A stretch of 64,000 nucleotides of DNA, taken from Pseudomonas sp. WJP1 (lineage in GTDB: Bacteria > Pseudomonadota > Gammaproteobacteria > Pseudomonadales > Pseudomonadaceae). The notes under the pieces were generated by a model. The model was not told the DNA's origin and made no database searches. It saw only the letters and a program-made list of their open reading frames with translations. Positions 32,604 to 61,685 of this stretch are shown here, piece after piece. The translations under genes were made by a program, and so were the position numbers. The stretch spans positions 2,468,501-2,532,500 of the forward strand of contig NZ_CP110128.1 in assembly GCF_028471945.1 (NCBI RefSeq). Reading direction: 5' to 3'. The stretch's first letter is position 1. Each line of letters begins with the position of its first letter.

Positions 32604-32643
32604 GTCCGGCTCGACGCCTGGCGAAACAGAGACTAGCATCGGC

Positions 32644-32685: not shown

Positions 32686-32695
32686 GCTTAATACG

Positions 32696-38092: not shown

Positions 38093-38109
38093 GGAAACAC
38101 CGCGCGATC

Positions 38110-38201: not shown

Positions 38202-38232
38202 GGTTTTGTGTCGTTCTTAGTGATTTATGTAA

Positions 38233-38240
38233 AACAATAA
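38233..38240 (+). promoter_or_regulatory. AACAATAA motif (Crc/Hfq type) before iolE
   Basis: AANAANAA directly in front of the AAGGTG ribosome site of iolE. Confidence 0.55.
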
Positions 38241-38251
38241 AAGGTGCAGCC

Positions 38252-39951: not shown

Positions 39952-39985
39952 ATTCCACCGTCTGAATTCCACTATCTGCAGGGAG

Positions 39986-39993
39986 AACAATAA
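39986..39993 (+). promoter_or_regulatory. AACAATAA motif (Crc/Hfq type) before mmsA
   Basis: AANAANAA lies between the GGGAG and the ATG of the mmsA gene, so Hfq binding there would directly cover the ribosome site. Confidence 0.55.
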
Positions 39994-39995
39994 CG

Positions 39996-41498: not shown

Positions 41499-41513
41499 TT
41501 CGCTTATACGGAG

Positions 41514-41521
41514 AACAACAA
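41514..41521 (+). promoter_or_regulatory. AACAACAA motif (Crc/Hfq type) before iolI
   Basis: AANAANAA between the GGAG and the ATG at 41525. Confidence 0.55.
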
Positions 41522-41524
41522 AAA

Positions 41525-42346
41525 ATGAGCAAACCCCTGCGTTTCGCCCTCAACCGTATGGTCGCACCCCGTTTGTCCCTGCCGGCGTTCATCGAGTTGG
41601 CGGTGACCCTCAAGGCCGACGCCATCGAGATCCGCAACGATCTCAAGGGCGTTGAAATCGAAGACGGCACCGCACCCGAACACGTGCGTCAATTGTGCGC
41701 GGCCAAGGGCATCACCGTGTTGTCGATCAACGCGCTGTATCCGTTCGATGTGTGGAATGACGAGCGCCGTGCACAGGCCCTGAAACTTGCCGCCTATGCC
41801 CGCGATTGTGGTGCGCAGGGTTTGGTCATGTGCCCGCTGAACGAGCGCACTGATCCACGTACCGAGGCGCAGCGTGCGTCCGGCCTGCGCACGGCGTTGA
41901 GTGAACTGGCGCCGATCCTGCGCGATCACGGCATCCTTGGCTTCATCGAGCCGCTGGGTTTCGAAGAGTGCTCGCTGCGGCGCAAACGCACGGCAGTGGA
42001 TGCGATCAAGGCCATCGGCGGGCTGGATGTGTTCCGCCTGGTGCATGACACCTTCCACCACCATCTGGCCAGCGAACATGAGTTTTTCCCTGAGCTGACC
42101 GGGCTGGTGCACATCTCCGGGGTCGAGGATGCCGAGGCGCCGCTGGCGACCATTCGTGACGGCCATCGGGTGCTGGTGGGCGAGGGCGACATCCTCGGCA
42201 ATGCGGCGCAGATCGATACCTTGCTCGGTAGCGGCTACAGCGGCTACCTGTCGTTCGAACCGTTTGCCGACAGCGTGCATGGGTTGGCGGATATCGAACG
42301 GGCGATCGGCGCGAGCATGGATCACCTGCAGAAATCCCTGGCCTGA
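41525..42346 (+). CDS. iolI: 2-keto-myo-inositol isomerase (IolI-like TIM barrel)
   Basis: 273 residues. [20 protein letters not shown], the EPLGF and [11 protein letters not shown] segments and the C-terminal SFEPFAD carry the metal-binding glutamates and histidines of the AP-endonuclease-2 fold. Length and sequence fit IolI, which interconverts 2-keto-myo-inositol and 1-keto-D-chiro-inositol and so lets D-chiro-inositol enter the pathway. Position between mmsA and iolD supports this. Confidence 0.87.
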
Positions 42347-42393
42347 TGGAGATCCCCACAGGGACCGGATTGCATTCACAAAAAGGTGCAAGC

Positions 42394-44325: not shown

Positions 44326-45393
<1,068 letters not shown>

Positions 45394-46747: not shown

Positions 46748-47674
46748 ATGAAGACCAAGATCCGTTTCGCCTCACTCGCCTTGTCCCTGATGTTCGCCAG
46801 CGGCGCTGCATTCGCTGACATGAAGATCGGCGTCAGCATGTCGCAGTTCGATGACACCTGGCTGACCTACCTGCGTGAGTCCATGGACACAAAAGCCAAG
46901 TCCTATCCCGATGGCGTCAAGCTGCAGTTCGAAGACGCCCGCAGCGACGTGGTCAAGCAACTGAGCCAGGTCGAAAGCTTCATCAGCCAGAAAGTCGATG
47001 CCATCGTGGTCAATCCGGTGGATACGGCCGCGACCAAAAAAATCACTGAAGCTGCCGTGAAGGCGGGCATCCCGCTGGTCTATGTCAACCGTCGTCCCGA
47101 TGACCTGAACCTGCCCAAAGGCGTGGTCACTGTCGCCTCCAACGACCTGGAGGCCGGGCAGATGCAAATGCAATACCTGGCCGACAAAATGGGCGGCAAG
47201 GGCGACATCGTGATCCTGCTGGGCGACCTGGCGAACAACTCCACCACCAACCGCACCAAGGGCGTCAAGGAGGTGCTGGCCAAGTACCCGAACATCAAGA
47301 TCGAGCAAGAGCAAACCGGCATCTGGTCGAGGGACAAGGGCATGACCCTGGTCAATGACTGGCTGACCCAGGGCCGCAAGTTCGACGCGGTCGTCTCCAA
47401 CAACGACGAGATGGCCATTGGTGCCGCAATGGCCCTGCAACAGGCCGGCGTGGAAAAGGGCAGCATCCTGATCGCCGGTGTCGACGGTACGCCTGACGGA
47501 TTGAACGCGGTGAAGAAGGGGGCTCTGGTGGTGTCGGTGTTCCAGGACGCCAAGGGCCAGGCGGACGGTTCGATCGAAACGGCAGTGAAAATGGCCAAAA
47601 ACGAAGCGGTAGAGCCGGCCGTCTGGGTGCCGTATCGCTTGATCACGCTGCAAAACGTTGACCAGTTCAAATAG
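46748..47674 (+). CDS. Inositol-type sugar ABC importer, periplasmic binding protein
   Basis: 308 residues with a signal peptide ending in GAAFA. Type I binding protein: KIGVSMSQFDDTWLTYLRE, AIVVNPVDTAATKKI, IPLVYVNRRPDDLN and NNDEMAIGAAMALQQAGV. It resembles the IbpA/RbsB group and belongs with the ATPase and permease that follow, so it is the core receptor of the system, probably for myo-inositol given the iol genes. First gene of the importer operon. Confidence 0.92.
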   Translation: MKTKIRFASLALSLMFASGAAFADMKIGVSMSQFDDTWLTYLRESMDTKAKSYPDGVKLQFEDARSDVVKQLSQVESFISQKVDAIVVNPVDTAATKKITEAAVKAGIPLVYVNRRPDDLNLPKGVVTVASNDLEAGQMQMQYLADKMGGKGDIVILLGDLANNSTTNRTKGVKEVLAKYPNIKIEQEQTGIWSRDKGMTLVNDWLTQGRKFDAVVSNNDEMAIGAAMALQQAGVEKGSILIAGVDGTPDGLNAVKKGALVVSVFQDAKGQADGSIETAVKMAKNEAVEPAVWVPYRLITLQNVDQFK

Positions 47675-47685
47675 TCCGTCCGTTC

Positions 47686-47699
47686 AATAACAACAATAA
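47686..47699 (+). promoter_or_regulatory. Triple overlapping AANAANAA motif
   Basis: AATAACAACAATAA contains three overlapping AANAANAA motifs between the binding-protein and ATPase genes, 45 bases before the ATPase start. It could affect translation of either gene or RNA processing. Confidence 0.4.
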
Positions 47700-47743
47700 A
47701 CACGCAAGGTGGCACCGCGACCTTGCTGATGGAGTACCTGATC

Positions 47744-49309
47744 ATGTTCGCTTCAGCGACTGCTTCGAGCACCCCGTTGATGGGTGTGCAGCCAACCGCA
47801 ACACCTGTCGATGAGCCGTACCTGTTGGAGATCGTCAACGTCAGCAAGGGTTTCCCCGGTGTGGTGGCCTTGTCCGACGTACAACTGCGGGTACGCCCCG
47901 GTTCCGTGTTGGCCCTGATGGGCGAGAATGGCGCGGGCAAATCCACCTTGATGAAAATCATCGCCGGCATCTACCAGCCCGACGCTGGCGAACTGCGCCT
48001 GCGGGGCAAGCCGGTGGTCTTCGAAACGCCCCTGGCGGCGCTGCAGGCCGGGATTGCGATGATCCACCAGGAACTCAACCTGATGCCGCACATGAGCATC
48101 GCCGAGAACATCTGGATTGGTCGTGAGCAGCTCAACGGTTTCCACATGATCGACCACCGGGAAATGCACCGCTGCACGGCGAAGTTGTTGGAGCGCCTGC
48201 GCATCAACCTTGATCCAGAGGAACAGGTCGGCAACCTTAGCATCGCCGAACGGCAGATGGTCGAGATCGCCAAGGCAGTGTCCTACGATTCCGACATCCT
48301 TATCATGGACGAACCGACTTCGGCCATCACCGACAAGGAGGTCGCCCACCTGTTTTCGATCATTGCCGACCTCAAGAGCCAGGGCAAAGGCATCATCTAC
48401 ATCACCCACAAAATGAATGAAGTGTTCAGCATCGCCGACGAAGTGGCAGTGTTCCGCGACGGCGCCTACATCGGCCTGCAACGCGCCGACAGCATGGACG
48501 GCGACAGCCTGATTTCGATGATGGTCGGGCGTGAACTGAACCAGTTGTTCCCGCTGCGCGAGACGCCGATCGGCGATCTGTTGCTGTCGGTGCGCGATCT
48601 CAAGCTCGACGGCATTTTCAAGGACGTGTCCTTCGATCTGCACGCCGGCGAGATCCTCGGCATTGCCGGGTTGATGGGCTCGGGGCGGACCAACGTCGCC
48701 GAGGCGATCTTTGGCATCACCCCGAGCGACAGCGGCGAGATTCGCCTCGACGGAGAAGTGGTGCGCATTACCGATCCGCACATGGCCATCGAGAAGGGCT
48801 TCGCCCTGTTGACCGAGGATCGCAAACTCAGCGGCCTGTTCCCGTGCCTGTCGGTGCTGGAGAACATGGAGATGGCGGTGCTGCCACATTACGCCGGCCA
48901 CGGTTTCATCCAGCAAAAAGCCCTGCGCGCCCTGTGCGAAGACATGTGCAAGAAGCTGCGGGTGAAAACCCCGTCGCTCGAGCAATGCATCGACACGCTG
49001 TCCGGCGGTAACCAGCAGAAGGCCTTGCTGGCGCGCTGGCTGATGACCAATCCGCGAATCCTGATTCTCGACGAGCCGACCCGCGGCATCGATGTCGGTG
49101 CCAAGGCCGAGATCTACCGGCTTATCTCCTACCTCGCCAGCGAAGGCATGGCGGTGATCATGATTTCCTCGGAGCTGCCGGAAGTGCTCGGCATGAGCGA
49201 TCGGGTCATGGTCATGCACGAGGGCGACCTGATGGGCACCCTCGACCGCAGCGAAGCGACCCAGGAACGAGTGATGCAACTGGCCTCGGGCATGTCCGCG
49301 GTTCACTAA
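47744..49309 (+). CDS. Sugar ABC importer ATPase (RbsA/IatA type)
   Basis: 521 residues with two ABC modules. The first has Walker [11 protein letters not shown], signature [14 protein letters not shown] and Walker [10 protein letters not shown]. The second has a degenerate P-loop (GLMGSGRTN), signature [15 protein letters not shown] and [11 protein letters not shown]. This asymmetry is normal for carbohydrate uptake type 2 ATPases. ATG 47744 has GGAG nine bases upstream. It is the only such ATPase in the window and may serve all three binding proteins. Confidence 0.94.
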
Positions 49310-49365
49310 TGGATGCCGGCGCTGGCGCGGCCAGCGTCGACGATGCGATAGAAGGGTGAGTGGTT

Positions 49366-50388
49366 ATGAATGCGATACTGGAAAACAAGCCAGCAACGGT
49401 ACCGGTCAAGAGTCGTCGGCGCTTTCCGACTGAACTGAGTATTTTCCTGGTGCTGATCGGCATCGGCCTGGTGTTCGAGGTGTTCGGCTGGATTGTGCGC
49501 GACCAGAGTTTCCTGATGAACTCCCAGCGGCTGGTCTTGATGATCCTGCAAGTGTCGATCATCGGCCTGCTGGCGATTGGCGTGACCCAGGTGATCATTA
49601 CGACCGGCATCGACCTGTCGTCCGGCTCGGTGTTGGCGTTGTCGGCAATGATCGCCGCCAGCCTGGCGCAGACCTCGGACTTCGCCCGGGCGGTCTTCCC
49701 GTCGCTGACTGACTTGCCGGTGTGGATTCCCGTCATAGTCGGGCTCGGCGTCGGGCTGCTGGCAGGAGCAATCAACGGCAGCATCATTGCGATTACCGGG
49801 ATCCCACCGTTCATTGCCACCCTGGGCATGATGGTCTCGGCCCGTGGCCTGGCGCGTTACTACACCGAAGGCCAGCCGGTGAGCATGCTCTCGGACTCCT
49901 ACACGGCCATCGGTCACGGCGCGATGCCGGTGATCATTTTCCTGGTGGTGGCGGTGATCTTCCATATCGCGTTGCGCTACACCAAGTACGGTAAATACAC
50001 CTACGCCATCGGCGGCAACATGCAGGCGGCGCGTACCTCCGGGATCAACGTCAAGCGCCACCTGGTCATCGTCTACAGTATCGCCGGGTTGCTGGCGGGA
50101 TTGGCAGGCGTGGTCGCTTCGGCCCGTGCCGCCACCGGCCAGGCCGGGATGGGCATGTCCTATGAGCTGGATGCGATTGCCGCCGCGGTCATCGGTGGCA
50201 CCAGCCTGGCGGGCGGGGTAGGGCGCATCACCGGCACGGTCATTGGTGCGCTGATCCTTGGGGTGATGGCCAGCGGGTTCACGTTCGTTGGGGTCGATGC
50301 CTATATCCAGGACATCATCAAAGGCTTGATCATCGTGGTTGCGGTGGTCATCGACCAATACCGCAACAAGCGCAAACTCAAGCGCTGA
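49366..50388 (+). CDS. Sugar ABC importer permease (RbsC/IatP type)
   Basis: 340 residues, about ten helices, BPD_transp_2 family. GVTQVIITTGIDLSSGSVLALS and YAIGGNMQAARTSGINVKR are the characteristic blocks, the latter including the ATPase-contact loop. It forms the homodimeric channel with the preceding ATPase. ATG 49366 is preferred; an in-frame GTG is six bases earlier. A terminator hairpin follows at 50404. Confidence 0.94.
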   Translation: MNAILENKPATVPVKSRRRFPTELSIFLVLIGIGLVFEVFGWIVRDQSFLMNSQRLVLMILQVSIIGLLAIGVTQVIITTGIDLSSGSVLALSAMIAASLAQTSDFARAVFPSLTDLPVWIPVIVGLGVGLLAGAINGSIIAITGIPPFIATLGMMVSARGLARYYTEGQPVSMLSDSYTAIGHGAMPVIIFLVVAVIFHIALRYTKYGKYTYAIGGNMQAARTSGINVKRHLVIVYSIAGLLAGLAGVVASARAATGQAGMGMSYELDAIAAAVIGGTSLAGGVGRITGTVIGALILGVMASGFTFVGVDAYIQDIIKGLIIVVAVVIDQYRNKRKLKR

Positions 50389-51222: not shown

Positions 51223-52149
51223 CTATTTATAATGTTGCTCGTACAAGGCAACCTGCTCCGGCGTGATCAACTGAAAGGGCACCCAGACATCCGTCTCGAC
51301 CGGCTCACCCTTGACCATCTTGATCGCCGCTTGCAGTGCGGTGGCCGCTTGGGCCTTTGGGTCTTGAAAAACCGAGGCAACCAGCATCCCGCGCTTGATC
51401 GCCGCCAGGCCGTCGGGCAGGCCGTCGATGCCGACAATCGCAATCTCGCCCCTGGTTTTGCCGGCCTGCTGCAGAGCCATGGCGGCGCCGATCGCCATCT
51501 CGTCATTGTTGGCGACGATGGCGTCAAAACTCGTCCCGGCCAGCAGCCAGTTACTGGTCAGGTCCATGCCTTTGTTGCGCTGCCACTCGGCGCTTTGCTG
51601 TTCGACAACCTTGATCCCGGGATAATCCTTGAGCACCTGTTTGACGCCTTCGGTGCGGTCGTGCGTGGCGTTTTGCGCGAGGTCGCCCATGATGATCGCG
51701 AGGGTGCCTTTGCCCCCCAGTTTTTCAGCCAGGTAGCGCATTTGCAGTTGACCGGCCTCAATGTCGTTCGACGCCACGGTGACAACGCCCTTGGGCAGCA
51801 CGCGTTCATCCGGGTGGCGGTTGACGTAGACCAGAGGCGTCTGCGCTTCGACGGCGGCGCGGGTCATGTTGGCGGTGGCGGCGGTGTCCACGGGTAGGAC
51901 GATGACAGCATCGACTTTCTGGTTGAGAAAGCCCTGGACCTGATTAAGCTGGCGAACCACATCGCCTTGGGCGTCCTCGAACTGAATCTGGATGTTGTCC
52001 TTTTTCGCAGCTTCCTCCAGGCCGCTGCGGACATAGGTCATGAAGTTGTCGTCGACCCTGGCGATGCTGACGCCGACGCGATAGCTGGCGGCGGCCCATT
52101 GGCTGAAGACGAGTAGCAGCGTGGCAAAAAGAAGTGAGCAGCGACGCAT
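51223..52149 (-). CDS. MocB/IbpA-like periplasmic binding protein (module 2)
   Basis: 308 residues from MRRCSLL with a signal peptide (cleavage near QWAAA). Type I binding protein with RVGVSIARVDDNFMTYVRS, AVIVLPVDTAATANM, TPLVYVNRHPDE and NNDEMAIGAAMALQQAG. It is a paralogue of the proteins at 29606 and 46748. In rhizobial rhizopine clusters MocB has this role, next to MocC- and MocA-like genes as here. It has no ABC partner in its own operon. AAGGA lies eight bases before the ATG at 52149. Confidence 0.88.
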   Translation of the reverse strand: MRRCSLLFATLLLVFSQWAAASYRVGVSIARVDDNFMTYVRSGLEEAAKKDNIQIQFEDAQGDVVRQLNQVQGFLNQKVDAVIVLPVDTAATANMTRAAVEAQTPLVYVNRHPDERVLPKGVVTVASNDIEAGQLQMRYLAEKLGGKGTLAIIMGDLAQNATHDRTEGVKQVLKDYPGIKVVEQQSAEWQRNKGMDLTSNWLLAGTSFDAIVANNDEMAIGAAMALQQAGKTRGEIAIVGIDGLPDGLAAIKRGMLVASVFQDPKAQAATALQAAIKMVKGEPVETDVWVPFQLITPEQVALYEQHYK

Positions 52150-52162
52150 GATGGTTTTCCTT

Positions 52163-52170
52163 TTGTTGTT
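52163..52170 (-). promoter_or_regulatory. AACAACAA motif (Crc/Hfq type)
   Basis: AANAANAA on the minus strand directly before the AAGGA of the module-2 binding protein. Confidence 0.5.
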
Positions 52171-52241
52171 ATCAGTCGACATTCATCAAGTTCAAGTTGC
52201 TGGCGCGCTCGGAATCAACGTCTGAGCGCGCCGCAGGTTCC

Positions 52242-53030
52242 TCACTCCAGCGTGAACGCTTGCCGGAAACGTTCGAGTGCCGCTTCGCTGTCGCCGCTGG
52301 CCCAGCCCTCCAGCCCGACGACACCGGTGTATCCCATGCCGAACAAGGCTTTGGCAATGGCCGGGTAATGGATTTCGCCAGTGCCCGGTTCCATGCGCCC
52401 GGGCACGTCAGCGACCTGGATTTCGCCGATGGCGCTGCCGGCGCGCTGGATCAGTTCGATCAGGTTCCCTTCGCCAATCTGCGCATGGTAAAGATCCAGG
52501 TTCATCTTCAAATGCGGGCTGCCCACAGCCTCGATCAACGCCAGGGTATCGTCGGCGCGGGCGAACGGAGTGCCGGGGTGGTCCACCTCGGTGTTGAGGT
52601 TTTCCAGCAGGAACACTCGGCCGGCGTCTTCGCCCAGGCGAGCGATTTTTTCCAGGGTCTTGCAGGCGCTCAACCACATGTGCCCGGTGGTGTGAGCCAC
52701 CGGTTTGACTGGCAAACCTTGATCGCCCAGGCCTGTTCCGTGCAGGTTGAGACTCGGGCAATTCAGTTGGGCGGCAACGGCCAGCGATTCCCGTGCGCTG
52801 TCGAGCAGGTGCTGGATGCCGTCGGGATCGGTCAGGTTGCCCGAGATGTAGCCCGTCATGGAGGTGAAATCAGCGCCGGTGGCCACAAGCGCCGGGATGT
52901 CTTTGTGCGTCCAGTCCCAGATTTCGGCGCTGAAGCCCAGCGCGTGAATGCGTTTGACCCGTTCGGTGAACGGAAGGTCGAGGAACACCATTTCGGCACT
53001 GATCGCCAGTTTGAATGGAATGAAGCTCAT
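52242..53030 (-). CDS. MocC/hydroxypyruvate-isomerase-like TIM barrel
   Basis: 262 residues, xylose-isomerase-like fold. FKLAISAEMVFLDLPFTERV, FLLENLNTEVDHPGTP, MNLDLYHAQIGEGNL, IGEIQVADVPGRMEP and VVGLEGWASGDSE provide the metal-ligand glutamates, aspartate and histidine. The DVPGR block is typical of hydroxypyruvate isomerase (Hyi) relatives; in this neighbourhood a MocC-like inosose isomerase or dehydratase is more likely. Its ATG overlaps the stop of the dehydrogenase at 53027 by four bases, showing coupling. Confidence 0.83.
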   Translation of the reverse strand: MSFIPFKLAISAEMVFLDLPFTERVKRIHALGFSAEIWDWTHKDIPALVATGADFTSMTGYISGNLTDPDGIQHLLDSARESLAVAAQLNCPSLNLHGTGLGDQGLPVKPVAHTTGHMWLSACKTLEKIARLGEDAGRVFLLENLNTEVDHPGTPFARADDTLALIEAVGSPHLKMNLDLYHAQIGEGNLIELIQRAGSAIGEIQVADVPGRMEPGTGEIHYPAIAKALFGMGYTGVVGLEGWASGDSEAALERFRQAFTLE

Positions 53031-54049
53031 GAGTGGGCTCCTTGTACGCGCACCGCCTTGCCTTGCTGGAAGGACTCGATACACGCCCGGGCAATGGCCA
53101 GTGCCGCGCGGGCATCTTCACCGCTGGCGAGTGGTTTTTCGCCGCTGCGCAGGCAGTCGACGAAATGGTTGAGCTCGGCCACGTAGGCATCACGCAGCAG
53201 GTCGGTGTCCAGGCGCAGGGTGTCGGCCTGGATGCCAGTCGCCAGGTAACGAACCAGGTCAGAGTCATTGACGCTGCCCATGCTCAGCATGCCGGCGCTA
53301 CCGAACACTTCGCCCCGAACGTCGTAGCCATACACCGCCTGGAAATTCGCCTCGGCGGTGGCGATGGCGCCGTTGTCGAAACGGATCGTGACCACCGCGG
53401 TGTCGAGCAAACCCTTGTCCTTAAAGTCTGGAGCGATCAGGGCATCGGCCATGACAAACACTTCGACCGCTTCGGCACCAGGATTGAGGTAGCGCAGGGT
53501 ATCGAAGTCATGGATCAGGGTTTCGAGGAAGATCACCCACTGTGGTGAGGCGGCGGGGTTGTTCAGGGCCGGATCGCGGGTCAGCGAGCGCAGCAACTGC
53601 GGCGTACCGATCCGGCCGGCGACCACATCGAGGTGGGCGGTGCGGAAGCTTTTGGCAAAGCGGCGGTTGAAGCCGACCTGCAGCGTCACTCGCGCATCGG
53701 CAGCGGCGGCGATGGCGCGGTCGGCTTCGTCCAGGGTAATGGCCATGGGTTTTTCGCAAAACACGCCTTTGCCGGCGCGGGCCGCACTGATCACCAGTTC
53801 GGCATGGCTGCGGGCCGGGGCGGCGATCAATACGCCGTCGATCTGCGGGTCATCGAGCAATTGCTGAGGGTCGGTGTAGACCCGCTCCACACCCAGCTCT
53901 GCGGCGAGGCGAGCGGCCTGGCCAGGTGTCGGGTCGGCGATGGCGGCCAGGCAGGCACCGGGAATGTGCCGCGCGGCGGTCACGCCGTGAAAGCTGCCCA
54001 TGCGGCCGGCGCCGATGAGGCCCAGGCGGATGATCTTGGATGTACTCAT
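53027..54049 (-). CDS. MocA/inositol 2-dehydrogenase-like oxidoreductase
   Basis: 340 residues, Gfo/Idh/MocA family. GLIGAGRMGSFHGV for NAD, catalytic lysine in FCEKPMAITLDEA, VGFNRRFAKSFR and the ETLIHDFDTLRYL D/H pair as in inositol dehydrogenases. It probably oxidises an inositol isomer or scyllo-inosamine-type compound. First gene of the module-2 operon. AGGGAG eight bases before ATG 54049 sets the start. A sigma-54 promoter lies about 70 bp upstream. Confidence 0.88.
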   Translation of the reverse strand: MSTSKIIRLGLIGAGRMGSFHGVTAARHIPGACLAAIADPTPGQAARLAAELGVERVYTDPQQLLDDPQIDGVLIAAPARSHAELVISAARAGKGVFCEKPMAITLDEADRAIAAAADARVTLQVGFNRRFAKSFRTAHLDVVAGRIGTPQLLRSLTRDPALNNPAASPQWVIFLETLIHDFDTLRYLNPGAEAVEVFVMADALIAPDFKDKGLLDTAVVTIRFDNGAIATAEANFQAVYGYDVRGEVFGSAGMLSMGSVNDSDLVRYLATGIQADTLRLDTDLLRDAYVAELNHFVDCLRSGEKPLASGEDARAALAIARACIESFQQGKAVRVQGAHS

Positions 54050-54063
54050 GAAATGACTCCCTT

Positions 54064-54071
54064 TTATTGTT
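54064..54071 (-). promoter_or_regulatory. AACAATAA motif (Crc/Hfq type)
   Basis: AANAANAA on the minus strand just upstream of the AAGGGAG of the MocA-like gene. Confidence 0.55.
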
Positions 54072-54119
54072 GTGCAATGACTCGACAGCAGGAATGTCCG
54101 TGCTGGTACAAAGCCGGGG

Positions 54120-54136
54120 AGCAAGCGTTGTGCCAA
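54120..54136 (-). promoter_or_regulatory. Sigma-54 promoter of the moc-like operon
   Basis: On the minus strand TTGGCACAACGCTTGCT. GG and GC are separated by exactly ten bases and all main consensus positions of TGGCAC-N5-TTGCT are met. It drives the operon 54049-51223 and lies opposite an AcoR-type sigma-54 activator. Confidence 0.85.
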
Positions 54137-54199
54137 TATTTAAGTGTTTGATATTTAAGGAGTTAATAAGGTGCGTTGGAAATACATGTTCAATCTGAT

Positions 54200-54222
54200 G
54201 ACATGTCTATACTGACATGTCA
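54200..54222. promoter_or_regulatory. Tandem GACATGTC palindromes, likely activator site
   Basis: GACATGTC at 54200-54207 and TGACATGTCA at 54213-54222, centres 14 bp apart; a third ACATGT is at 54184. They lie about 65-90 bp upstream of the sigma-54 promoter and just before the activator gene, the usual place of an enhancer-type site that also allows autoregulation. Confidence 0.65.
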
Positions 54223-54243
54223 AAAACGTGAACATAGGAGCGA

Positions 54244-56265
54244 ATGGTGATCCCACAGCCGATGGCCTTCAGCGAGCAAGACCTCGATTACATAACGGCG
54301 CTCGGTCCGGCGTCGTTAAGCGAAGGCCCCATCGCTGCGCTGGAGCAAGCCTGGCTGGCGTGTCTGGAGGGTCGCACCGACAGACCTGCCGGGGTCAGAC
54401 AGATTATTTGGGATTCCTGGTTGCGCAGCGTCCGTGCCGGCCTCGATCCCGATGATGGCCAATACCGGTTTGTCTTCCCCGACGTACTGGCCGCAACGCT
54501 GGCGGCCAATCGTGTGTTGATCACTGCGGCGGCGGAGGTCATGCGAGGGTTGCTCGCCTACAACCCCCGGGGCCATATCAATCTGACCGATGCCGAAGGG
54601 ACGACGCTGTATTTCTGCGGCCTGGACCTCACCCCGGTGGGCAGCCGGCTGCTGGAGTCGGTACAGGGCACCAACTGCACAGGGCTGGCGCTTGCCGAAG
54701 ACCGCTTGATGTATGTGCTGGCCGAAGAGAACTTCGGCGTCGGCCTGCGTCGGCGGCGCATGCATTGTGCCGCCGCGCCGATCCGCGATGCCCAGGGCCG
54801 GACACTGGCCATGCTGACCCTCACCGCAGAGCCCGGCTGGTTCCATTTCCATACCCTGGGCACCGTCCAGGCCGCCGCCGAAGCGGTGTCGCGGCAGATG
54901 GCGCTGCAGGCCCTGCTGGAAGAACAACAAACCGTGCTTGAAGTGCTGAACGAGGGGCTGGTGGTGCTGGATGAGCGCGGCTGCATCAAGGCGCTCAATC
55001 GCTATGCGCGGCAATTGTTTCACGTGGGCCTGGAGTTGCTCGGCAGTCCGTTCCAGCGCCTGGGTCGCAGCGAGCTGACCAGCGAGATTCTGCTGCGCGG
55101 CGGCAAAGGGCAGCAGCATGAAGGGATAAGAGACCTCGATTGCACCTTCGAGCTGCATGATCGCAGCCTCCTGGCCTGCCTGGTCTCCGTGTGCCCGCTG
55201 GAGCAGGGCGGGCGCATCGTTTCGCTGCGCGAGAACCGACGCATCCGGGAAATTACCCGGCGGATCATCGGCACTCAGGCCAGCTACACCTTCGAAACCA
55301 TTCAGGGCAGTTCGCGAGCCATTCAGGATGCGTTGCACTTGGGAAGGATCGCCAGTCGCAGTGACTCGACCACACTGATCCTGGGCGAAAGCGGCACTGG
55401 CAAGGAGCTGTTCGCCCAGGCGATTCATAACGGCAGTGACCGCTGCGGTGGTCCGTTCGTGGCGGTCAATTGCGGGGCCATTCCGCGAGATCTGGTGCAG
55501 AGCGAATTGTTCGGGCATGTCGAGGGCGCCTTCACCGGATCGGCCCGTGGCGGTTCGGCCGGCAAGTTCGAATTGGCCGATGGCGGTACGATCTTCCTCG
55601 ATGAAATCGGTGACATGTCGTTCGATGCCCAGGTCAGTTTGCTGCGCGTCTTGCAGGAAGGCGAGGTGACGCGGGTGGGCGCGAAAAAGTCCCAGCAGGT
55701 GAACGTGCGCATCATCGCCGCCACTCACCGCAACTTGAGTCAGGCGGTGGCCGAGGGGGCTTTCCGTGAGGATCTGTATTACCGGCTGAATGTGTTGAAT
55801 CTGACAGTTCCACCACTGAGGATGCGCCGCGAGGACGTGCCCTTGCTGGCGCAACATTTTCTTGCTCGTTGCGCACGCTCACTGCGCAAATCGGTGCAGG
55901 GCATCTCGCCAGAGGCGCTGGATATACTTTGCGCCTACCACTGGCCAGGCAATGTCCGTGAGCTGGAAAACACCCTTGAACGGGCGACCAACCTGGCCGT
56001 GACCGAACTGATCCAGCCGGGTGATTTACCGCTTGAAATCAAGCAAAGGCCGCGGCCGTCTGCGCCGGGAAGTCTGCCCGAACCCCGGGCCGCACTGGAC
56101 CTTGGTGCCCATGAAATGAATGCGATCATCGCGGCCCTGAAGGATACCCACGGCAACATTCGGCTGGCCGCCAGGCAGCTGAATGTGTCCCGTGGCGGTT
56201 TGTACAACAAGATGAATCGGTTCGGCCTGAATGCCGAGGTTTTTCGTTCGGGCCCCAGCCTGTGA
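54244..56265 (+). CDS. AcoR-type sigma-54-dependent activator
   Basis: 673 residues. The N-terminal part (about 60-220) is a GAF-like sensor as in AcoR/DhaR and about 225-330 is PAS-like. The AAA+ domain has Walker A GESGTGKE (381-388), loop-1 GAFTGS (428-433, instead of the usual GAFTGA) and FLDEIGD as Walker B. A Fis-type HTH ends the protein (NIRLAARQLNVSRGGLYNKM). It should remodel sigma-54 polymerase at the divergent promoter 54120-54136. The AGGAG is only three bases from ATG 54244; the next codon GTG 54247 would be better spaced. The sensed ligand is unknown, probably the module-2 substrate. Confidence 0.9.
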   Translation: MVIPQPMAFSEQDLDYITALGPASLSEGPIAALEQAWLACLEGRTDRPAGVRQIIWDSWLRSVRAGLDPDDGQYRFVFPDVLAATLAANRVLITAAAEVMRGLLAYNPRGHINLTDAEGTTLYFCGLDLTPVGSRLLESVQGTNCTGLALAEDRLMYVLAEENFGVGLRRRRMHCAAAPIRDAQGRTLAMLTLTAEPGWFHFHTLGTVQAAAEAVSRQMALQALLEEQQTVLEVLNEGLVVLDERGCIKALNRYARQLFHVGLELLGSPFQRLGRSELTSEILLRGGKGQQHEGIRDLDCTFELHDRSLLACLVSVCPLEQGGRIVSLRENRRIREITRRIIGTQASYTFETIQGSSRAIQDALHLGRIASRSDSTTLILGESGTGKELFAQAIHNGSDRCGGPFVAVNCGAIPRDLVQSELFGHVEGAFTGSARGGSAGKFELADGGTIFLDEIGDMSFDAQVSLLRVLQEGEVTRVGAKKSQQVNVRIIAATHRNLSQAVAEGAFREDLYYRLNVLNLTVPPLRMRREDVPLLAQHFLARCARSLRKSVQGISPEALDILCAYHWPGNVRELENTLERATNLAVTELIQPGDLPLEIKQRPRPSAPGSLPEPRAALDLGAHEMNAIIAALKDTHGNIRLAARQLNVSRGGLYNKMNRFGLNAEVFRSGPSL

Positions 56266-56280
56266 CGGGGCAAGAAAATC

Positions 56281-56335
56281 AAAAGCCAAAGCGAGGGGGC
56301 CTGACAGCCGACCTGACTTTTGCGGGTGTACCCGA
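56281..56335 (-). repeat. Inverted partial copy of the dispersed repeat
   Basis: The stretch including AAAGCCAAAGCGAGGGGGCC and GACCTGACTTTTGC is the reverse complement of 56462-56516. It mirrors the first part of repeat copy 2 across the REP doublet. Confidence 0.75.
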
Positions 56336-56339
56336 CCCC

Positions 56340-56449
56340 CTGTAGGAGCCAGGCTTGCCGGCGAAGAACGATAACGCGGTACAACAGGCACACCGCAGCG
56401 CCTGGTTCGCCGGCAAGTCGGATCGCCGCACCGCTGGCTCCTACAAGGG
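56340..56449. repeat. REP inverted pair
   Basis: CTGTAGGAGCCAGGCTTGCC at 56340 and an inverse arm ending CTGGCTCCTACAAGGG at 56449. Inverse in order to the units at 50534-50772. Confidence 0.88.
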
Positions 56450-56459
56450 ATTTGCGGTA

Positions 56460-56770
56460 TCTGCAAAAGTCAGGTCGGCTGTCAGGCCGCCTTGCTTTGG
56501 TTTTTGACTTGGGCGCCCCGTTAACCACGATGGCCGAACGTAGGCATTGCGCAGTGGGTAAACCGGCAGGACGCCGGTTTAGCCGCGCTGGGCCAAGGAT
56601 GGCCCATCGCGGCGACCCACGGAGCAATGCCGGAGTGAGGGCATGCCGAGCCTAGGCGAGGCACCGAGTGGTGGGGCAAGAGCGTTTGGTTACTTTGCGC
56701 TTTTCAAAGTCACCCGCTGTAAAAGCGGAACCATAAGTGGCCGTTACCGCAGCAATGGATAGGTACTCAG
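56460..56770 (+). repeat. About 310-bp dispersed repeat, copy 2
   Basis: Same orientation as copy 1 at 50785-51095 and highly similar. With the REP pair it fills the 605-bp gene-free stretch 56266-56870. Apart from these repeats nothing was recognised there. Confidence 0.85.
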
Positions 56771-56870
56771 ACAACAATCTCCCACAGCTTTGACGCGGCA
56801 TGGATCAACGCTGGTAGAGGCGCCGATGGTGATAGTCACAGGCTCAGGGCGCGACAGAGCCGCTCCACCT

Positions 56871-57920
56871 TCAGCCTCGAGCGTTTTCCGAGGTCATGAT
56901 CTGCAACGGAATATGGACCCGATGCCGAACCGGATCGAAGTCCGGCGTGGTCTGCAGTTCCACCAGCAAGTCGACCAGCGCTGCCGCCAGCAATCGCGGC
57001 TGGGAGTCGATCACCACGCTGATCAAGCCCTGGGCCAGAGCCTGGCGCGACAACTCGGTGGATTCCTGCAGGATGCAACAGAGGTTCGGCCGCTTCGGTA
57101 ACTGCGACAGGGCACTGATGATGCCATCGCCGCCCCCGCCGACCACGCACAAACCCCGCAAGTCGTCATGGCGCGCCAACAGTTCCAGCGTGGCTTCTTC
57201 GGTGACGTCACAGTTGTCCAGGTTGATCACCGCTTCGAGTGGCTTCAACCCGGGTGCGTGCTCCTTCAGATAACTGTGCAGTCCCTCCACCCGAGCCTGA
57301 TGGCCGAGAAAACGGTGGCCGCCCAGCAGGACCCCGACGCTGCCTTTCTGGCCACCGCAAGTATGAGCCAGCAGCCATCCCATGGTGCGTCCGACGACAT
57401 GATTATCCTGACCGACGTATGGCTCATTTGCCGCCTCGTGGATGTCGGACAGCAGCGCGATCACTGGCACGCCCGCGGCCCTGATCTGCGCGATGGCGGC
57501 ATTGATCAACGGGTGCGCGAAGCTGACCACCGCCAAGCCATCGCACTGCACCGCCAGTTGTTCGATCTGGGCAATGATGGCGCCGGGTGTGCGATCGAAA
57601 ACGTACTCGAATTGACAGCTTAAGTTGGCGCCGGCCTGGCGCTGCGCCTCTTCGGTGATGGCAGCGGCAACGTTGGCATAGAACGCCTGGGCGGTGCCAA
57701 GCAACAGGATGCCGAAACGATAGCTGGGGCGCCGTTCGCGGATCCGCTGGCCGATCAGCCTGGCCGCGAAATAGCCGACCGCCTCGGCGGCCTGGAACAC
57801 CTGCTCGGCGGTAGCCGGGTTCACCGCAGCCCTGGCATTGAGCACCCGGTCTACGGTGGCGACACTCAAGCCGGCACGCTCGGCGACCGTGGCGATGGTT
57901 GGGCGTTTAGTGTTGTTCAT
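56871..57920 (-). CDS. LacI-family transcriptional regulator (MocDEF-like operon)
   Basis: 349 residues. HTH TIATVAERAGLSVATVDRVLNAR, then a sugar-binding-protein-like domain (YRFGILLLGTAQAFYANVA, VPVIALLSDI, YVGQDNHVVGRTMGWLL, VVGGGGDGIISAL). It shares the VDRVL helix variant with the LacI protein at 32696. It is divergent from the desaturase-like operon at 58103, with a 20-bp palindrome at 57939 just upstream of its own start, which suggests autoregulation and control of that operon. It probably senses a substituted cyclitol. Confidence 0.9.
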   Translation of the reverse strand: MNNTKRPTIATVAERAGLSVATVDRVLNARAAVNPATAEQVFQAAEAVGYFAARLIGQRIRERRPSYRFGILLLGTAQAFYANVAAAITEEAQRQAGANLSCQFEYVFDRTPGAIIAQIEQLAVQCDGLAVVSFAHPLINAAIAQIRAAGVPVIALLSDIHEAANEPYVGQDNHVVGRTMGWLLAHTCGGQKGSVGVLLGGHRFLGHQARVEGLHSYLKEHAPGLKPLEAVINLDNCDVTEEATLELLARHDDLRGLCVVGGGGDGIISALSQLPKRPNLCCILQESTELSRQALAQGLISVVIDSQPRLLAAALVDLLVELQTTPDFDPVRHRVHIPLQIMTSENARG

Positions 57921-57938
57921 GGCGGCCCCCGCAAGCGC

Positions 57939-57958
57939 CTTGATAGAAAACTATCAAG
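57939..57958. promoter_or_regulatory. Palindromic LacI-type operator
   Basis: CTTGATAG, four A, then CTATCAAG: a perfect 8-bp inverted repeat 19 bases before the LacI start codon. Confidence 0.6.
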
Positions 57959-57975
57959 CTTCAATGGGCCTGGAT

Positions 57976-57988
57976 GATAGCTTGATAG
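57976..57988. promoter_or_regulatory. Second LacI half-site cluster
   Basis: GATAGCTTGATAG repeats the half-site of the palindrome at 57939. A related ATCAAGCTTG occurs at 58079-58088 just before the 58103 gene. Confidence 0.4.
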
Positions 57989-58093
57989 GGAATGTATTCA
58001 AGGGCTTGAGGGCAATCTTTGGGCTCTCTATCGTTTCCCAAGCGATGTGATAGCGCATCCAGGCAAGTGCCTTAAACCATCAAGCTTGCGGAG

Positions 58094-58101
58094 AACAATA
58101 A
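58094..58101 (+). promoter_or_regulatory. AACAATAA motif (Crc/Hfq type)
   Basis: AANAANAA between the GGAG and the ATG of the MocD-like gene. Confidence 0.55.
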
Positions 58102-58102
58102 A

Positions 58103-59215
58103 ATGCCTGAACAACACGCAGCATCTGGAAAATCCGCTAAACCCGCGCCTCGGGATTATCGGTTGACGGGGCCCGAAGCGGCCAAAGCCGCGCAAAAAGG
58201 CCTGGTCTCGGCCAACTGGTATCAATCCCCCATTCCCCGTAAACGCATGAAGGAGTTAATGCAGCGCCGCGACGGCCCGGCTTTGCGCGATACCGCGATC
58301 TGGTTGCTGGCGATGGTCGCGACCGGGTTCGGCGGTTATTGGTTCTGGGGTTCATGGGCCTGTGTTCCGTTCTTCTTCGTCTATGGCCTGCTCTACGGCA
58401 CCGCGTCCAATGCCCGTTGGCACGAAGCCGGTCACGGGACGGCGTTCAAAACCCGCTGGATGAATGATGCGGTCTACCAGCTGTCGAGCTTCATGTTCAT
58501 GTTCGAACCCCAGGTCTGGCGCTGGAGCCACGCTCGTCACCACACCGACACCATCATCGTCGGTCGCGACCCCGAGATTGTCGAGCCGCGTCCGCCGAGC
58601 CTGGTCATGATGGTGCTGAGCCTCTTCAGGATGCCTTATGCAATCAAGACGATGTGGTCGGTGTGCCGGCATGCGACCGGGCGAATGGCTGGGGAAGAGC
58701 AGACCTTCATCCCTGAGTCCGAGTGGCCCAAGGTGCAAAGGGACGCGCGCGTCTGGCTGGTGATCTATGGGCTTGTCGTGGGCGCGGCGCTGTACTTGCA
58801 GAGCTGGTTGCCGCTGATGTTCATCGGCCTTCCAACCTTGTATGGCGGCTGGCTCTCCTACCTGTTCGGTCTTACGCAGCATGTCGGACTGGCCGAAGAC
58901 GTGCTCGATCACCGCAGCAACTGCCGAACGATCTATATGAACCCGGTACTGCGTTTCATGTACCTCGACATGAACTATCACCTGGAACACCACATGTATC
59001 CGATGGTGCCTTTTCATGCACTGGCGCAGCTTCACGAAGAAATTCGCCACGATTGCCCGCCACCTTACGCCAACCTGTACGAGGCCTTCCGGGAGATCAT
59101 CCCGACGATCTTGAAGCAGCGAAAAGACCCGAACTATCACATCCGCCGGCCTTTACCACCGCGTGCAGAACCTGCCGCAACCGTCCAGGCACCCGCTGAA
59201 ACAACGCCGGCCTGA
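58103..59215 (+). CDS. MocD-like fatty-acid-desaturase-fold oxygenase
   Basis: 370 residues, membrane di-iron oxygenase. The three histidine boxes are HEAGH (107-111), HARHH (143-147) and HLEHH (293-297), with QH at 259-260. Hydrophobic helices lie near 65-100 and 215-255. The next two genes encode a Rieske ferredoxin and a ferredoxin reductase, exactly the MocD-MocE-MocF set thought to demethylate the rhizopine 3-O-methyl-scyllo-inosamine in rhizobia. A true lipid desaturase is possible but would not explain the gene order or the cyclitol context. First gene of its operon. Confidence 0.82.
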   Translation: MPEQHAASGKSAKPAPRDYRLTGPEAAKAAQKGLVSANWYQSPIPRKRMKELMQRRDGPALRDTAIWLLAMVATGFGGYWFWGSWACVPFFFVYGLLYGTASNARWHEAGHGTAFKTRWMNDAVYQLSSFMFMFEPQVWRWSHARHHTDTIIVGRDPEIVEPRPPSLVMMVLSLFRMPYAIKTMWSVCRHATGRMAGEEQTFIPESEWPKVQRDARVWLVIYGLVVGAALYLQSWLPLMFIGLPTLYGGWLSYLFGLTQHVGLAEDVLDHRSNCRTIYMNPVLRFMYLDMNYHLEHHMYPMVPFHALAQLHEEIRHDCPPPYANLYEAFREIIPTILKQRKDPNYHIRRPLPPRAEPAATVQAPAETTPA

Positions 59216-59251
59216 CACCTTCCTGGCTGTACCACTACAAGAGAAAACGCC

Positions 59252-59572
59252 ATGACCGATCAATGGATCGATGTCTGTGCCGTGGGCGAAATAAATGAAG
59301 AGGACGTCATTCGTTTCGACCATGGCCCGCACACCTATGCCGTCTACCGCTCTGCAGACGACGAGTTTTTCGCCACCGCAGGCCTTTGCACCCACGAGTC
59401 CATCCACCTCGCAGACGGCCTGGTGATGGAGCATGTCATCGAGTGCCCCAAGCACAACGGACGCTTCGACTACCGCACTGGCAAAGCCCTGGGCGCGCCG
59501 GTGTGCGTCAACCTCAAGACCTATCCGGTGCGGGTCGAGGCGGGGCGTGTCCTGCTCGCAATCACCGTTTAA
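59252..59572 (+). CDS. MocE-like Rieske [2Fe-2S] ferredoxin
   Basis: 106 residues, a single Rieske domain. The cluster ligands are C46-x-H48 in GLCTHES and C65-x2-H68 in ECPKHNG. It should carry electrons from the reductase at 59591 to the oxygenase at 58103. Spacing to both neighbours is short, consistent with one transcript. No signal peptide, so cytosolic. Confidence 0.88.
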   Translation: MTDQWIDVCAVGEINEEDVIRFDHGPHTYAVYRSADDEFFATAGLCTHESIHLADGLVMEHVIECPKHNGRFDYRTGKALGAPVCVNLKTYPVRVEAGRVLLAITV

Positions 59573-59590
59573 TTGCAGGGAGTCTGTGCC

Positions 59591-60832
59591 ATGAGTTCCA
59601 TCAATGCTCCACTGGTTATCGTCGGCGCCGGGCACGCGGGTGGCCGCGCGGCGCTGACCCTGCGGGCGGAAGGTTATCGCGGTCGCCTGATCCTGATCGG
59701 CGACGAATCCCACCCTCCCTATGAACGTCCGCCGCTGTCCAAAGGGTTGTTGCAGGGCACGGTTGAACTGGCGACTTGCACTTTGTGCGATAGCGCCCAA
59801 CTCGCCGAACTGGACATCGAGCACCTGTCCGGCAACCCGGTGAAAAACCTCGACCCGCCGCAGCATCGATTGCAGTTGGCCGACGGCAGTTGGTTGCATT
59901 ACGCCCGCCTGTTGCTCGCGACCGGGGGCAGGGCGCGGCTGCTGCCCTCCGTGCCCGGGCATCTGCCCAACGTACTTTATCTGCGAACCCATGACGAGGC
60001 GGTCGCACTGCGCGATTCGCTGCAACCTGGCGCCCGATTGGTGGTCATCGGCGGTGGCTTTATCGGCCTCGAGGTCGCCGCGACGGCCCGTGCCCTGGGT
60101 TGCACGGTGACCTTGCTCGAAGCCGGGCCGCGCCTGGCAGGTCGCGTCCTGCCGGAGCGATTGTCCAATGTCCTGCTGGAACTGCATCGCCGTCAGGGCG
60201 TGGATGTCCGGCTGAACGTGGCGATTGAAACGGTGCAGGGCGCAATCCGCGCTGAAGCGGTGCAGCTGGCCGACGGCCAGTTGTTGCCCTGCGACCTGGT
60301 CGTGGTGGGCATCGGCATGCAACCCAACACCGGGTTGGCCGTGGCCGCCGGGTTGCAAGTGGGTCAGGGCATTCGCGTCGATGCGCAGCTGCGCACCAGT
60401 GCGCCGGACATTTTTGCAGCAGGTGATGTCTGTGAATTTCCTCTGCACCCGCAAGGGGGTTTCCAGCGTCAGGAAACCTGGCGCAACGCCGAAACCCAGG
60501 GCCGTTACGCCGCGTTGAACCTGTTGGGGGGCGAGCTGCCCTTCGAGGTCATTCCCGGCTTTTGGTCCGATCAGTACGACTGGGGGCTGCAAACCGTAGG
60601 CACCATCGCCAACACTGAACCAACGGTAAGCCGGGCATCCCCGGGCGGTGGTTTCCTGTTGTTCTACCTCGATGCCGAACAACACCTGCTAGGGGCTTGC
60701 GGCTGGGGCCAGGGCAATAGCGTGGCCAAGGACATCAAATTGTGCGAACGGCTGATCGCCAGCCAAAACGTGCTCTCGGTGGTCGCTTTAGCCGATGCCG
60801 ATGTATCGCTCAAGCAATTGTTGAGGAACTGA
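59591..60832 (+). CDS. MocF-like FAD-dependent ferredoxin reductase
   Basis: 413 residues. Two dinucleotide sites are seen: VIVGAGHAGGRAALTLR for FAD and VVIGGGFIGLEVAATAR for NAD(P)H. PPYERPPLSKG and IFAAGDVCEFP are typical of oxygenase-coupled ferredoxin reductases, and the C-terminal domain contains FWSDQYDWGLQTVG. It completes the electron chain NAD(P)H-reductase-Rieske-oxygenase. GGGAG before ATG 59591 fixes the start. Its stop is two bases before the next gene. Confidence 0.9.
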   Translation: MSSINAPLVIVGAGHAGGRAALTLRAEGYRGRLILIGDESHPPYERPPLSKGLLQGTVELATCTLCDSAQLAELDIEHLSGNPVKNLDPPQHRLQLADGSWLHYARLLLATGGRARLLPSVPGHLPNVLYLRTHDEAVALRDSLQPGARLVVIGGGFIGLEVAATARALGCTVTLLEAGPRLAGRVLPERLSNVLLELHRRQGVDVRLNVAIETVQGAIRAEAVQLADGQLLPCDLVVVGIGMQPNTGLAVAAGLQVGQGIRVDAQLRTSAPDIFAAGDVCEFPLHPQGGFQRQETWRNAETQGRYAALNLLGGELPFEVIPGFWSDQYDWGLQTVGTIANTEPTVSRASPGGGFLLFYLDAEQHLLGACGWGQGNSVAKDIKLCERLIASQNVLSVVALADADVSLKQLLRN

Positions 60833-60833
60833 C

Positions 60834-61685
60834 ATGCGCGAATTCCTGGTGTTTCAGTCCTTGTGGGCCATGCAAGATCACCGTGGCCAATGCGACCTTT
60901 CCCTTGAAGCGCAACTGGATAAAATCGCCGCCGCCGGTTTCGACGGGATCACCGATCATTTCTGGGTGGCACCACAGGCGGCACGCCTGAGCGCCGCGGC
61001 CAAGGCGCAAGGCCTGCAAATCGAAGGTCAACTGTTCCCCCGGACCGTGGATGATCTGGCGGCCGCGCTCGATGTCGTCTCCCGCTACGGCTGCCACCAC
61101 CTCACGCTACAGGCAGACGTCCGGCCGCGCACGCTGGCGCAAGCCATCGAGCTGATCGAAGGCTGGCAGCGCCTGGCCGAGCAGGTGGACTTTCCAATCC
61201 TGCTGGAGACTCACCGATATCGCCTCACCAGCGACCTGTTGTTCACCCTCGACATTCTCGCGCAAATGCCCGACCTCAAGCTGTTGGCCGACTTGTCCCA
61301 CTATGTCGTGGGCCGGGAATTGCCTGAGTCGGCTACCGCTGAAGACGAGGAACAGATCCATGCCATCCTGCGCCACAGTTGGGGTTTTCACGGCCGGGTC
61401 GCCAACGGCGAGCAGGTCCAGGTGCCCTTGAGCTTCGCCCAGCATCGACCCTGGCTGGAACGGTTCCTGGGCTGGTGGCGCTACGGAATCGAGGATTGGC
61501 TGGCCCGACCAGACACGCCCGCCAGCCTGTCTTTCACCTGCGAGCTCGGCCCGCCGCCTTATGCGATCACGGGTGCAGATGGGCATGACATCACGGATCG
61601 CTGGGCGGAGGCATTGATGTTGAAGGAGCTGATGCGTGGGATCTGGAACGATTGCCAAGTGAGATCGGCTACATTGAAAGTCTGA
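60834..61685 (+). CDS. Sugar phosphate isomerase/epimerase-like TIM barrel
   Basis: 283 residues, AP-endonuclease-2/xylose-isomerase-like fold. FDGITDHFWVAP, ILLETHRYRLTSD, LLADLSHYVVGREL and SFTCELGPPPYAITG hold the likely metal ligands. It is translationally linked to the MocF-like gene and is the last gene of the operon, so it probably isomerises or dehydrates the demethylated cyclitol. It is the fourth protein of this fold in the cyclitol region. The reaction is unknown. Confidence 0.8.
   Translation: MREFLVFQSLWAMQDHRGQCDLSLEAQLDKIAAAGFDGITDHFWVAPQAARLSAAAKAQGLQIEGQLFPRTVDDLAAALDVVSRYGCHHLTLQADVRPRTLAQAIELIEGWQRLAEQVDFPILLETHRYRLTSDLLFTLDILAQMPDLKLLADLSHYVVGRELPESATAEDEEQIHAILRHSWGFHGRVANGEQVQVPLSFAQHRPWLERFLGWWRYGIEDWLARPDTPASLSFTCELGPPPYAITGADGHDITDRWAEALMLKELMRGIWNDCQVRSATLKV

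Follow-up and report, generated by a model that had tools for sequence, protein, structure and literature searches.

The 64,000-nucleotide stretch of DNA analyzed here (the window), from the single-contig 7.0-Mb genome of Pseudomonas sp. WJP1, carries a mocDEF-type oxygenase gene set that probably serves the oxidative O-demethylation of what we infer to be an O-methyl-inositol from plants, such as pinitol, ononitol, quebrachitol or a related compound, with the product passing into the inositol (iol) pathway. The genes belong to two separately controlled units, unit A (51223-56265) and unit B (56871-61685). They resemble the rhizobial system for catabolism of rhizopine (3-O-methyl-scyllo-inosamine), but they are not that system, nor are they the two parts of one split rhizopine (Moc) system that an initial annotation of the window had proposed. 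The seven genes of that annotation are all intact open reading frames (ORFs) at the expected positions and in the families named, according to the ORF list (from 25548 onward in the window) and Pfam and NCBIfam models. Absent from it were a sigma-54 activator (54244-56265), a LacI regulator (56871-57920) and a PhyH-containing module (29606-34832).

Unit B consists of four genes running rightwards on the + strand, mocD (58103-59215), mocE (59252-59572), mocF (59588-60832) and a TIM barrel gene (60834-61685), with gaps of 36, 15 and 1 bp between them. They share a promoter region of 182 bp with the divergent gene for the LacI-family regulator (56871-57920, - strand), which has a Peripla_BP_4 sensor domain by Pfam. 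MocD is a member of the FA_desaturase family (Pfam, 142 bits) with three histidine motifs, H107-EAG-H (HEAGH), H143-ARHH (HARHH) and H293-LEHH (HLEHH), and from this family we take it to be a membrane di-iron oxygenase. No sequence match to MocD was found in the PDB, and its structure prediction was poor (predicted local distance difference test, pLDDT, 60.7) and was not used. MocE is a Rieske ferredoxin of the MocE family, which TIGR02377 recognizes with 169.5 bits (cut-off 136) and whose Rieske motif lies at residue 46, and MocF is a MocF-like ferredoxin reductase (FAD, NAD) by Pfam with two dinucleotide-binding motifs. Motifs and family scores thus agree with the three-histidine-box oxygenase, Rieske ferredoxin, reductase and TIM barrel that had been annotated at 58103-61685. 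The TIM barrel protein has the IolE/epimerase fold and is a putative metal-dependent isomerase/epimerase or dehydratase; PF01261 matches it at 26.3 bits, under its cut-off of 31.1, the NCBIfam library gives no model match, and E125, D153, H186 and E237 are invariant in 21 of 21 sequences.

The region between LacI and mocD contains two conserved elements. A perfect 20-bp palindrome (57939-57958, 0 mismatches) is the putative LacI operator, and binding of LacI to it is suggested by its position. The palindrome is the sole match in the 7.0-Mb genome when up to two mismatches are allowed, and in the window when up to three are. Its 12-base core is present in 68 of 70 distinct Pseudomonas LacI-mocD intergenic regions and the full 20 bases in 51 of them, and the 12-base core of the second element (57975-57988, single copy in the window) is present in all 70. 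These counts refer to distinct regions, since an earlier set of 78 held the window's own region twice together with near-copies. An operator common to the Pseudomonas and the rhizobial LacI-mocD promoters could not be shown, as the rhizobial mismatches were 5, 6 and 3 of 14 and shuffled sequences did as well in 266, 781 and 7 of 1000 cases.

Of the 70 Pseudomonas loci (76 in all) for which 3 kb or more downstream of mocD was available, 69 have the complete LacI-mocD-mocE-mocF-TIM barrel block, and the nearest MocD proteins among the loci fetched are those of Pseudomonas sp. GM49 and GM48 (94% identity). In the published account of P. syringae phylogroups 1 and 3, mocDEF is placed next to a gene called xylA2, mocCABR is described as absent, and the function is called unclear with opine-like or aromatic substrates suggested (PMC5132102). 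This is probably the same block, as the P. amygdali locus (L056) is 81% (LacI), 74% (MocD), 88% (MocE), 70% (MocF) and 84% (TIM barrel) identical to the window; with this identity and the same place, the TIM barrel 60834 is probably the reported xylA2. Its fold is that of IolE and epimerases, and its sequence lends the xylose isomerase label no support, giving only the PF01261 match below cut-off and three solved sequences at E values up to 10, none of them a xylose isomerase.

Unit A is transcribed leftwards from its promoter in the order Gfo/Idh dehydrogenase (53027-54049), TIM barrel (52242-53036) and binding protein (51223-52182), all on the - strand, and the joint occurrence of these three families at 51223-54049 was correctly recognized in the initial annotation. 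The dehydrogenase (GFO_IDH_MocA) is inositol 2-dehydrogenase-like, with 315.7 bits to TIGR04380, below the cut-off of 355, and its best solved relatives are 3ezy and inositol dehydrogenases. The TIM barrel (AP_endonuc_2) is hydroxypyruvate-isomerase/epimerase-like. The binding protein (Peripla_BP_4, 198.8 bits) is of the inositol ATP-binding cassette (ABC) transporter type and stands in an operon that has neither an ATPase nor a permease. Upstream of the dehydrogenase gene lies a -24/-12 promoter of the sigma-54 type (54120-54135, - strand), and divergent from the operon is the gene for a sigma-54 activator with a GAF domain (54244-56265, + strand, family models), which from its position may drive unit A. 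The -24/-12 pattern has one match in the window, and a chance match arose in 23 of 100 shuffles of the whole window; a looser pattern was found in 7 of 20000 shuffles of the window's 194-bp region. All 42 unit A loci with the head-to-head arrangement have the element (40 distinct sequences).

Are the two units parts of one pathway? Among the 64 Pseudomonas MocD loci whose upstream stretch reaches at least 6.5 kb, unit A was complete and adjacent in 38 (a count made with other filters than that of the 42 promoter loci), and three of the other 26 show part of unit A running off the available stretch. We then considered 31 genomes chosen for lacking a visibly complete unit A next to MocD (in one of them, L049, it was partial), several of which had a short contig upstream of mocD. 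The unit A binding protein had matches of 72-91% in 14 of these genomes and of only 51-58% in the other 17, which thus have no match of at least 70%. Unit B, then, does not require unit A in all species. Conversely, unit A occurs without MocDEF on a plasmid stretch of P. oryzihabitans (L103), where only this stretch was searched.

The rhizopine loci of rhizobia comprise mocC, mocBA, mocR and mocDEF. To place the window relative to such loci we used that of R. leguminosarum A1 plasmid pRLa11 (L100), found by tblastn, and the similar loci of S. kummerowiae (L099) and S. meliloti T073 (L101). They are called rhizopine loci from their genes, with a MocR of 751 bits against a cut-off of 650 in L100 and moc-boxes in all three; within L100 we assigned MocA, MocB and MocC by place. 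The proposed kinship with rhizobial Moc proteins holds for the oxygenase, as MocD, MocE and MocF of the window are 53, 68 and 45% identical to those of L100. It does not extend to MocA, since the Gfo/Idh protein 53027-54049 is only 30% identical to MocA of L100, whereas the MocA proteins of L099 and L101 reach 79-80%; the other dehydrogenases of the window (33705, 44326 and 45539) reach only 26-32%, the search for a MocA being limited to the window. The best MocR score (NF052281) in the whole genome is 463.7, below the curated cut-off of 650. The best moc-box candidate before the window's mocD has 9 mismatches in 22 positions, and 303 of 500 shuffles were as good, whereas L099, L100 and L101 have 0-2 mismatches. 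In place of these elements the window has LacI and an extra TIM barrel, and its operon has no PanB-like or PurU gene. Without MocR at cut-off, moc-boxes and a MocA ortholog, the rhizopine system is not present as such.

The remaining parts of the comparison concern binding proteins and TIM barrels. The binding proteins of the window are related to that in the MocB place of L100 (43% for 51223 and 47% for 46748), and the three of them are closer to each other (54-57%) than to this protein (43-47%). The rhizopine substrate-binding protein model NF052284 was tried as evidence against a MocB and dropped; its genome-wide run was uninformative, and the protein in the MocB place of L100 itself fails it. 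In L100 (9303-10232 and 19511-20524) this model gives the protein in the MocB place 40 of 420 bits and another binding protein of the locus 138 of 420 bits. The unit A TIM barrel had been given the role of MocC, but neither this barrel (52242) nor the one at 60834 has a blastp match in L100, and the window's counterpart of the IolE/MocC-type protein of L100 is iolE at 38252 (48%). An inositol pathway is, according to published work, needed for rhizopine use as well.

In another group of rhizobial loci mocDEF is linked to a LacI gene, on R. johnstonii pRL11 (L095), S. meliloti pSymB (L006 and L096) and in M. huakuii (L008). Shared with the window are a divergent LacI (39-40% in L006 and L008; 40% for the LacI adjoining M. 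huakuii mocDEF), MocD (56%) and MocE (65-71%), and with a divergent LacI, mocD-mocE-mocF in one direction and iolD in the genome, the window fits this family. PMC3538637, which discusses this neighbourhood in rhizobia, describes LacI (FixV-like) genes divergent from mocDEF beside a TIM barrel gene, msi119, and infers an inositol derivative; the M. huakuii TIM barrel in the msi119 place is 43% identical to the TIM barrel 41525 of the window's iol cluster. A maximum-likelihood tree of 51 of 112 MocD proteins, in which Pseudomonas was thinned, placed the three rhizopine MocD proteins inside a nine-row group that also holds LacI-linked rhizobial copies (support 97/87), and Pseudomonas MocD in one separate clade (support 100/99). 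MocD of L100 shares 80-82% identity with its LacI-linked counterparts from S. meliloti pSymB and R. johnstonii pRL11. With rhizopine MocD nested among LacI-linked copies, the MocDEF set alone does not predict rhizopine use.

One-carbon genes recur beside mocD in these loci. In the LacI-linked loci a PanB-like gene follows mocDEF, in M. huakuii together with purU and folD, where Pseudomonas has the TIM barrel 60834 instead, and in L100, L099 and L101 a PanB-like protein and PurU stand beside MocD. The PanB family uses methylene-tetrahydrofolate, and together with PurU and FolD such neighbours point to release of a one-carbon unit. A PanB-like gene was present in 9 of 20 MocD loci of other Pseudomonadota and in none of 20 loci of other desaturase-family proteins, while PurU or FolD was present in just one of the 20 MocD loci. 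Eighteen of the control loci came from genomes of the MocD set and two from others, and one control held a MocF-like reductase. The PanB-like protein of L100 (14765-15607), a type recurrent after mocF in rhizobia, fails both PanB models (123 bits against a cut-off of 272, and 102 against 208). Looser marks also differed between the two sets, with any Gfo/Idh protein in 8 of 20 MocD loci and any TIM barrel of the reference set in 5 of 20, against none in the controls.

The link to inositol was most apparent at the level of whole genomes. MocD was present in 36 of 199 sampled Pseudomonas genomes, and iolD, at the threshold used, in 35 of these 36 as compared to 56 of the 163 others (Fisher p 4e-13, kinship ignored); the one exception, G601, carries a short frame with a 91% iolD piece. 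Thirteen of the MocD genomes are single contigs, and in 12 of them the coordinates put iolD at least 150 kb from MocD, so the co-occurrence is not linkage. Across 398 Pseudomonadota genomes, an iolD match at E 1e-60 was found in 28 of 29 genomes with MocD and in 51 of 369 without (p 6e-21), or in 22 of 23 and 51 of 364 when Pseudomonas was left out, and the one miss carries a MocD of only 34% identity. At the strict cut-off of E 1e-120, which was run first, iolD was found in 46 of the 398 genomes, in 16 of 29 with and 30 of 369 without MocD.

Expression data from R. mesoamericanum give independent support for the inositol link. PMC5789663 reports that Mimosa pudica exudate induces mocDEF 1.53- to 2.11-fold and also raises idhA, iol genes and an ABC operon that includes a MocB homolog. 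Of the compounds quantified in this exudate, pinitol had the highest concentration (145 uM), and the authors read the response as rhizopine use. O-methyl-inositols such as pinitol and quebrachitol are described as carbohydrates of trees and legumes (PMC8919412, PMC5789663), pinitol being reported from conifers, acacia and eucalyptus, and quebrachitol from the sap of maple and the phloem of litchi (PMC8919412). No bacterial O-methyl-inositol demethylase is described among the open-licence literature matches listed.

In the pathway we propose, NADH would reduce MocF, which in turn would reduce the Rieske ferredoxin MocE, and the membrane di-iron MocD would then hydroxylate the methyl carbon of the substrate, so that the methyl group would depart as formaldehyde. 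The resulting free inositol (or an inosose, after adjustment by the TIM barrel) would be oxidized by the dehydrogenase 44326 and passed to the core iol enzymes. LacI would sense the substrate or the product and release the operator. Unit A may be an accessory under separate (sigma-54) control that serves either another inositol isomer or the same substrate, and its binding protein would probably borrow the ABC transporter at 47723-50388.

This proposed removal of a methyl group from a plant O-methyl-inositol is supported by the homology of MocDEF to the oxygenase of rhizopine loci, by the one-carbon genes beside MocD elsewhere, by the co-occurrence of MocD and iolD and by the exudate expression. 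Several observations weigh against it. The phylum-wide cut-off was relaxed to 1e-60 after the first result, and iolD was then found in 79 of 398 genomes; the change followed our judgement that 1e-120 lost diverged iolD, and a looser look at 14 genomes was positive in 13. Many of the matches gained in this way are partial. Of the 28 in genomes with MocD, 13 span no more than about residues 6-397 of 659, in frames mostly of iolD length, and rest on the sequence match rather than on the curated iolD model, and the co-occurrence counts take no account of phylogeny. The Pseudomonas operon itself is without the one-carbon genes, which weakens that point for the window. Nor is the linkage to inositol genes general, as a strict marker was present in only 4 of 20 non-Pseudomonas MocD loci (about 9 kb). 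The inositol dehydrogenase was found in 3, iolD in 1, iolE in 0 and the binding protein in 3 of the 20, with 0 of 20 for each in the controls, and each marker alone was not significant (Fisher p 0.23 to 1). The argument therefore rests on the genome-level co-occurrence. Finally, apart from the R. mesoamericanum expression, no experiment on LacI-linked MocDEF was found in the open-licence literature.

The main rival for the chemistry is that MocDEF hydroxylates a deoxy-cyclitol, such as quercitol, to inositol without any demethylation. Acting on a ring carbon, such di-iron chemistry would yield inositol and would presumably also need iolD, rhizobia have one-carbon genes at the position of the Pseudomonas TIM barrel, and quercitol is listed from several trees in PMC8919412. 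However, the recurrence of one-carbon genes beside MocD and the ties between homologous mocDEF and rhizopine catabolism drawn in PMC10107442 and PMC3538637 speak for removal of a methyl group, and we regard the deoxy-cyclitol as improbable. Still less probable is an oxygenase for aromatic hydrocarbons or opine-like compounds, as suggested for P. syringae in PMC5132102, or a lipid desaturase. MocD does belong to the FA_desaturase family, but it comes with a ferredoxin, a reductase and a TIM barrel of its own, its scores to the desaturase and hydroxylase models of NCBIfam stay far below cut-off (at most 41.1 bits against 380-500), and the strong co-occurrence with iolD in two samples would be hard to reconcile with such a role.

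Catabolism of rhizopine itself we consider very unlikely. The identity of MocD, MocE and MocF to a rhizopine locus and the complete iol pathway would fit it, but against these stand the missing MocR, moc-boxes and MocA ortholog, the binding proteins that are closer to each other than to the MocB-place protein, and the likewise missing mocCABR in the P. syringae account (PMC5132102). Of the initial proposal that the genome uses a methylated cyclitol, the methylated cyclitol with its link to inositol thus remains likely, and rhizopine does not. A single pathway in which unit A would take up and oxidize, and unit B demethylate, one and the same substrate is favoured by their frequent adjacency in Pseudomonas. 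We nevertheless find this rather unlikely, since each unit has its own promoter elements and adjacent regulator, the 17 genomes above carry MocD without a close unit A binding protein, and unit A is found without MocDEF in P. oryzihabitans. The same separation of promoters and regulators, and the same 17 genomes, speak against a split MocABC and MocDEF system.

The full iol pathway that had been noted beside these genes was borne out by curated NCBIfam models. The core pathway (36155-45393, + strand) comprises iolC/J (1108 bits), iolE at 38252 (382), iolB (309), iolA (methylmalonate-semialdehyde dehydrogenase, 691), a TIM barrel at 41525 and iolD at 42346-44325 (962), all the scored ones above cut-off, and the dehydrogenase 44326 passes the model for inositol 2-/D-chiro-inositol 1-dehydrogenase with 565 against 540 bits. 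It is followed by an inositol-type ABC transporter (46748-50388, + strand) with a binding protein assigned by Pfam, to which the unit A binding protein is 56% identical, and an ATPase and permease (47723-50388) named from their ORF sequence and from matches in related loci rather than by a family-library scan. Further upstream lies a probable accessory module (29606-34832) with an inositol-type binding protein, a PhyH-type Fe/2-oxoglutarate dioxygenase (30578-31732), a short-chain dehydrogenase/reductase, a LacI and a Gfo/Idh protein, which makes it a candidate for a second module of cyclitol oxidation. The three binding proteins (29606-30529, 46748-47674 and 51223-52182) share the mutual 54-57% identity given above, and among the genes looked at (26000-64000) one ATPase/permease pair was seen for all three.

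PMC12709175 recently showed that PhyH-like enzymes, bacterial ones included, strip the O-methyl group from 2'-O-methyl nucleosides, which makes it possible that the PhyH module is a second candidate cyclitol O-demethylase. Extending this, we tentatively suggest, as a possibility short of probable, that the window is a cyclitol island in which di-iron MocDEF and the PhyH-type 2-oxoglutarate dioxygenase provide two O-demethylases of different chemistry, each beside its own LacI, with three binding proteins on one transporter and one iol pathway, and that MocDEF originally served plant O-methyl-inositols (pinitol, ononitol, quebrachitol and kin) with rhizopine as a later recruitment.

Related gene sets occur on rhizobial plasmids in other combinations. 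In a cluster of R. binae (L097, 7796-12409), seen in part in L094 (9783-12306), a sterol-desaturase-family protein, thus a different oxygenase family, replaces MocD beside MocE, together with a LacI, a reductase and a TIM barrel 48-49% identical to 60834. An R. leguminosarum plasmid (L005, 5783-17999) has a MocD-like gene and a sterol-desaturase-type gene with ABC genes, a Gfo/Idh protein and a TIM barrel, adjoining iolE and iolD.

If O-demethylation of plant O-methyl-inositols is the function of MocDEF, a gene set present in about a fifth of sampled Pseudomonas (36 of 199) would gain a defined job, and the label rhizopine on mocDEF annotations would often be wrong. With quebrachitol and pinitol being carbohydrates of trees, such an original role would explain why mocDEF was gained by tree-infecting P. 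syringae, and the published association with woody hosts would become testable.

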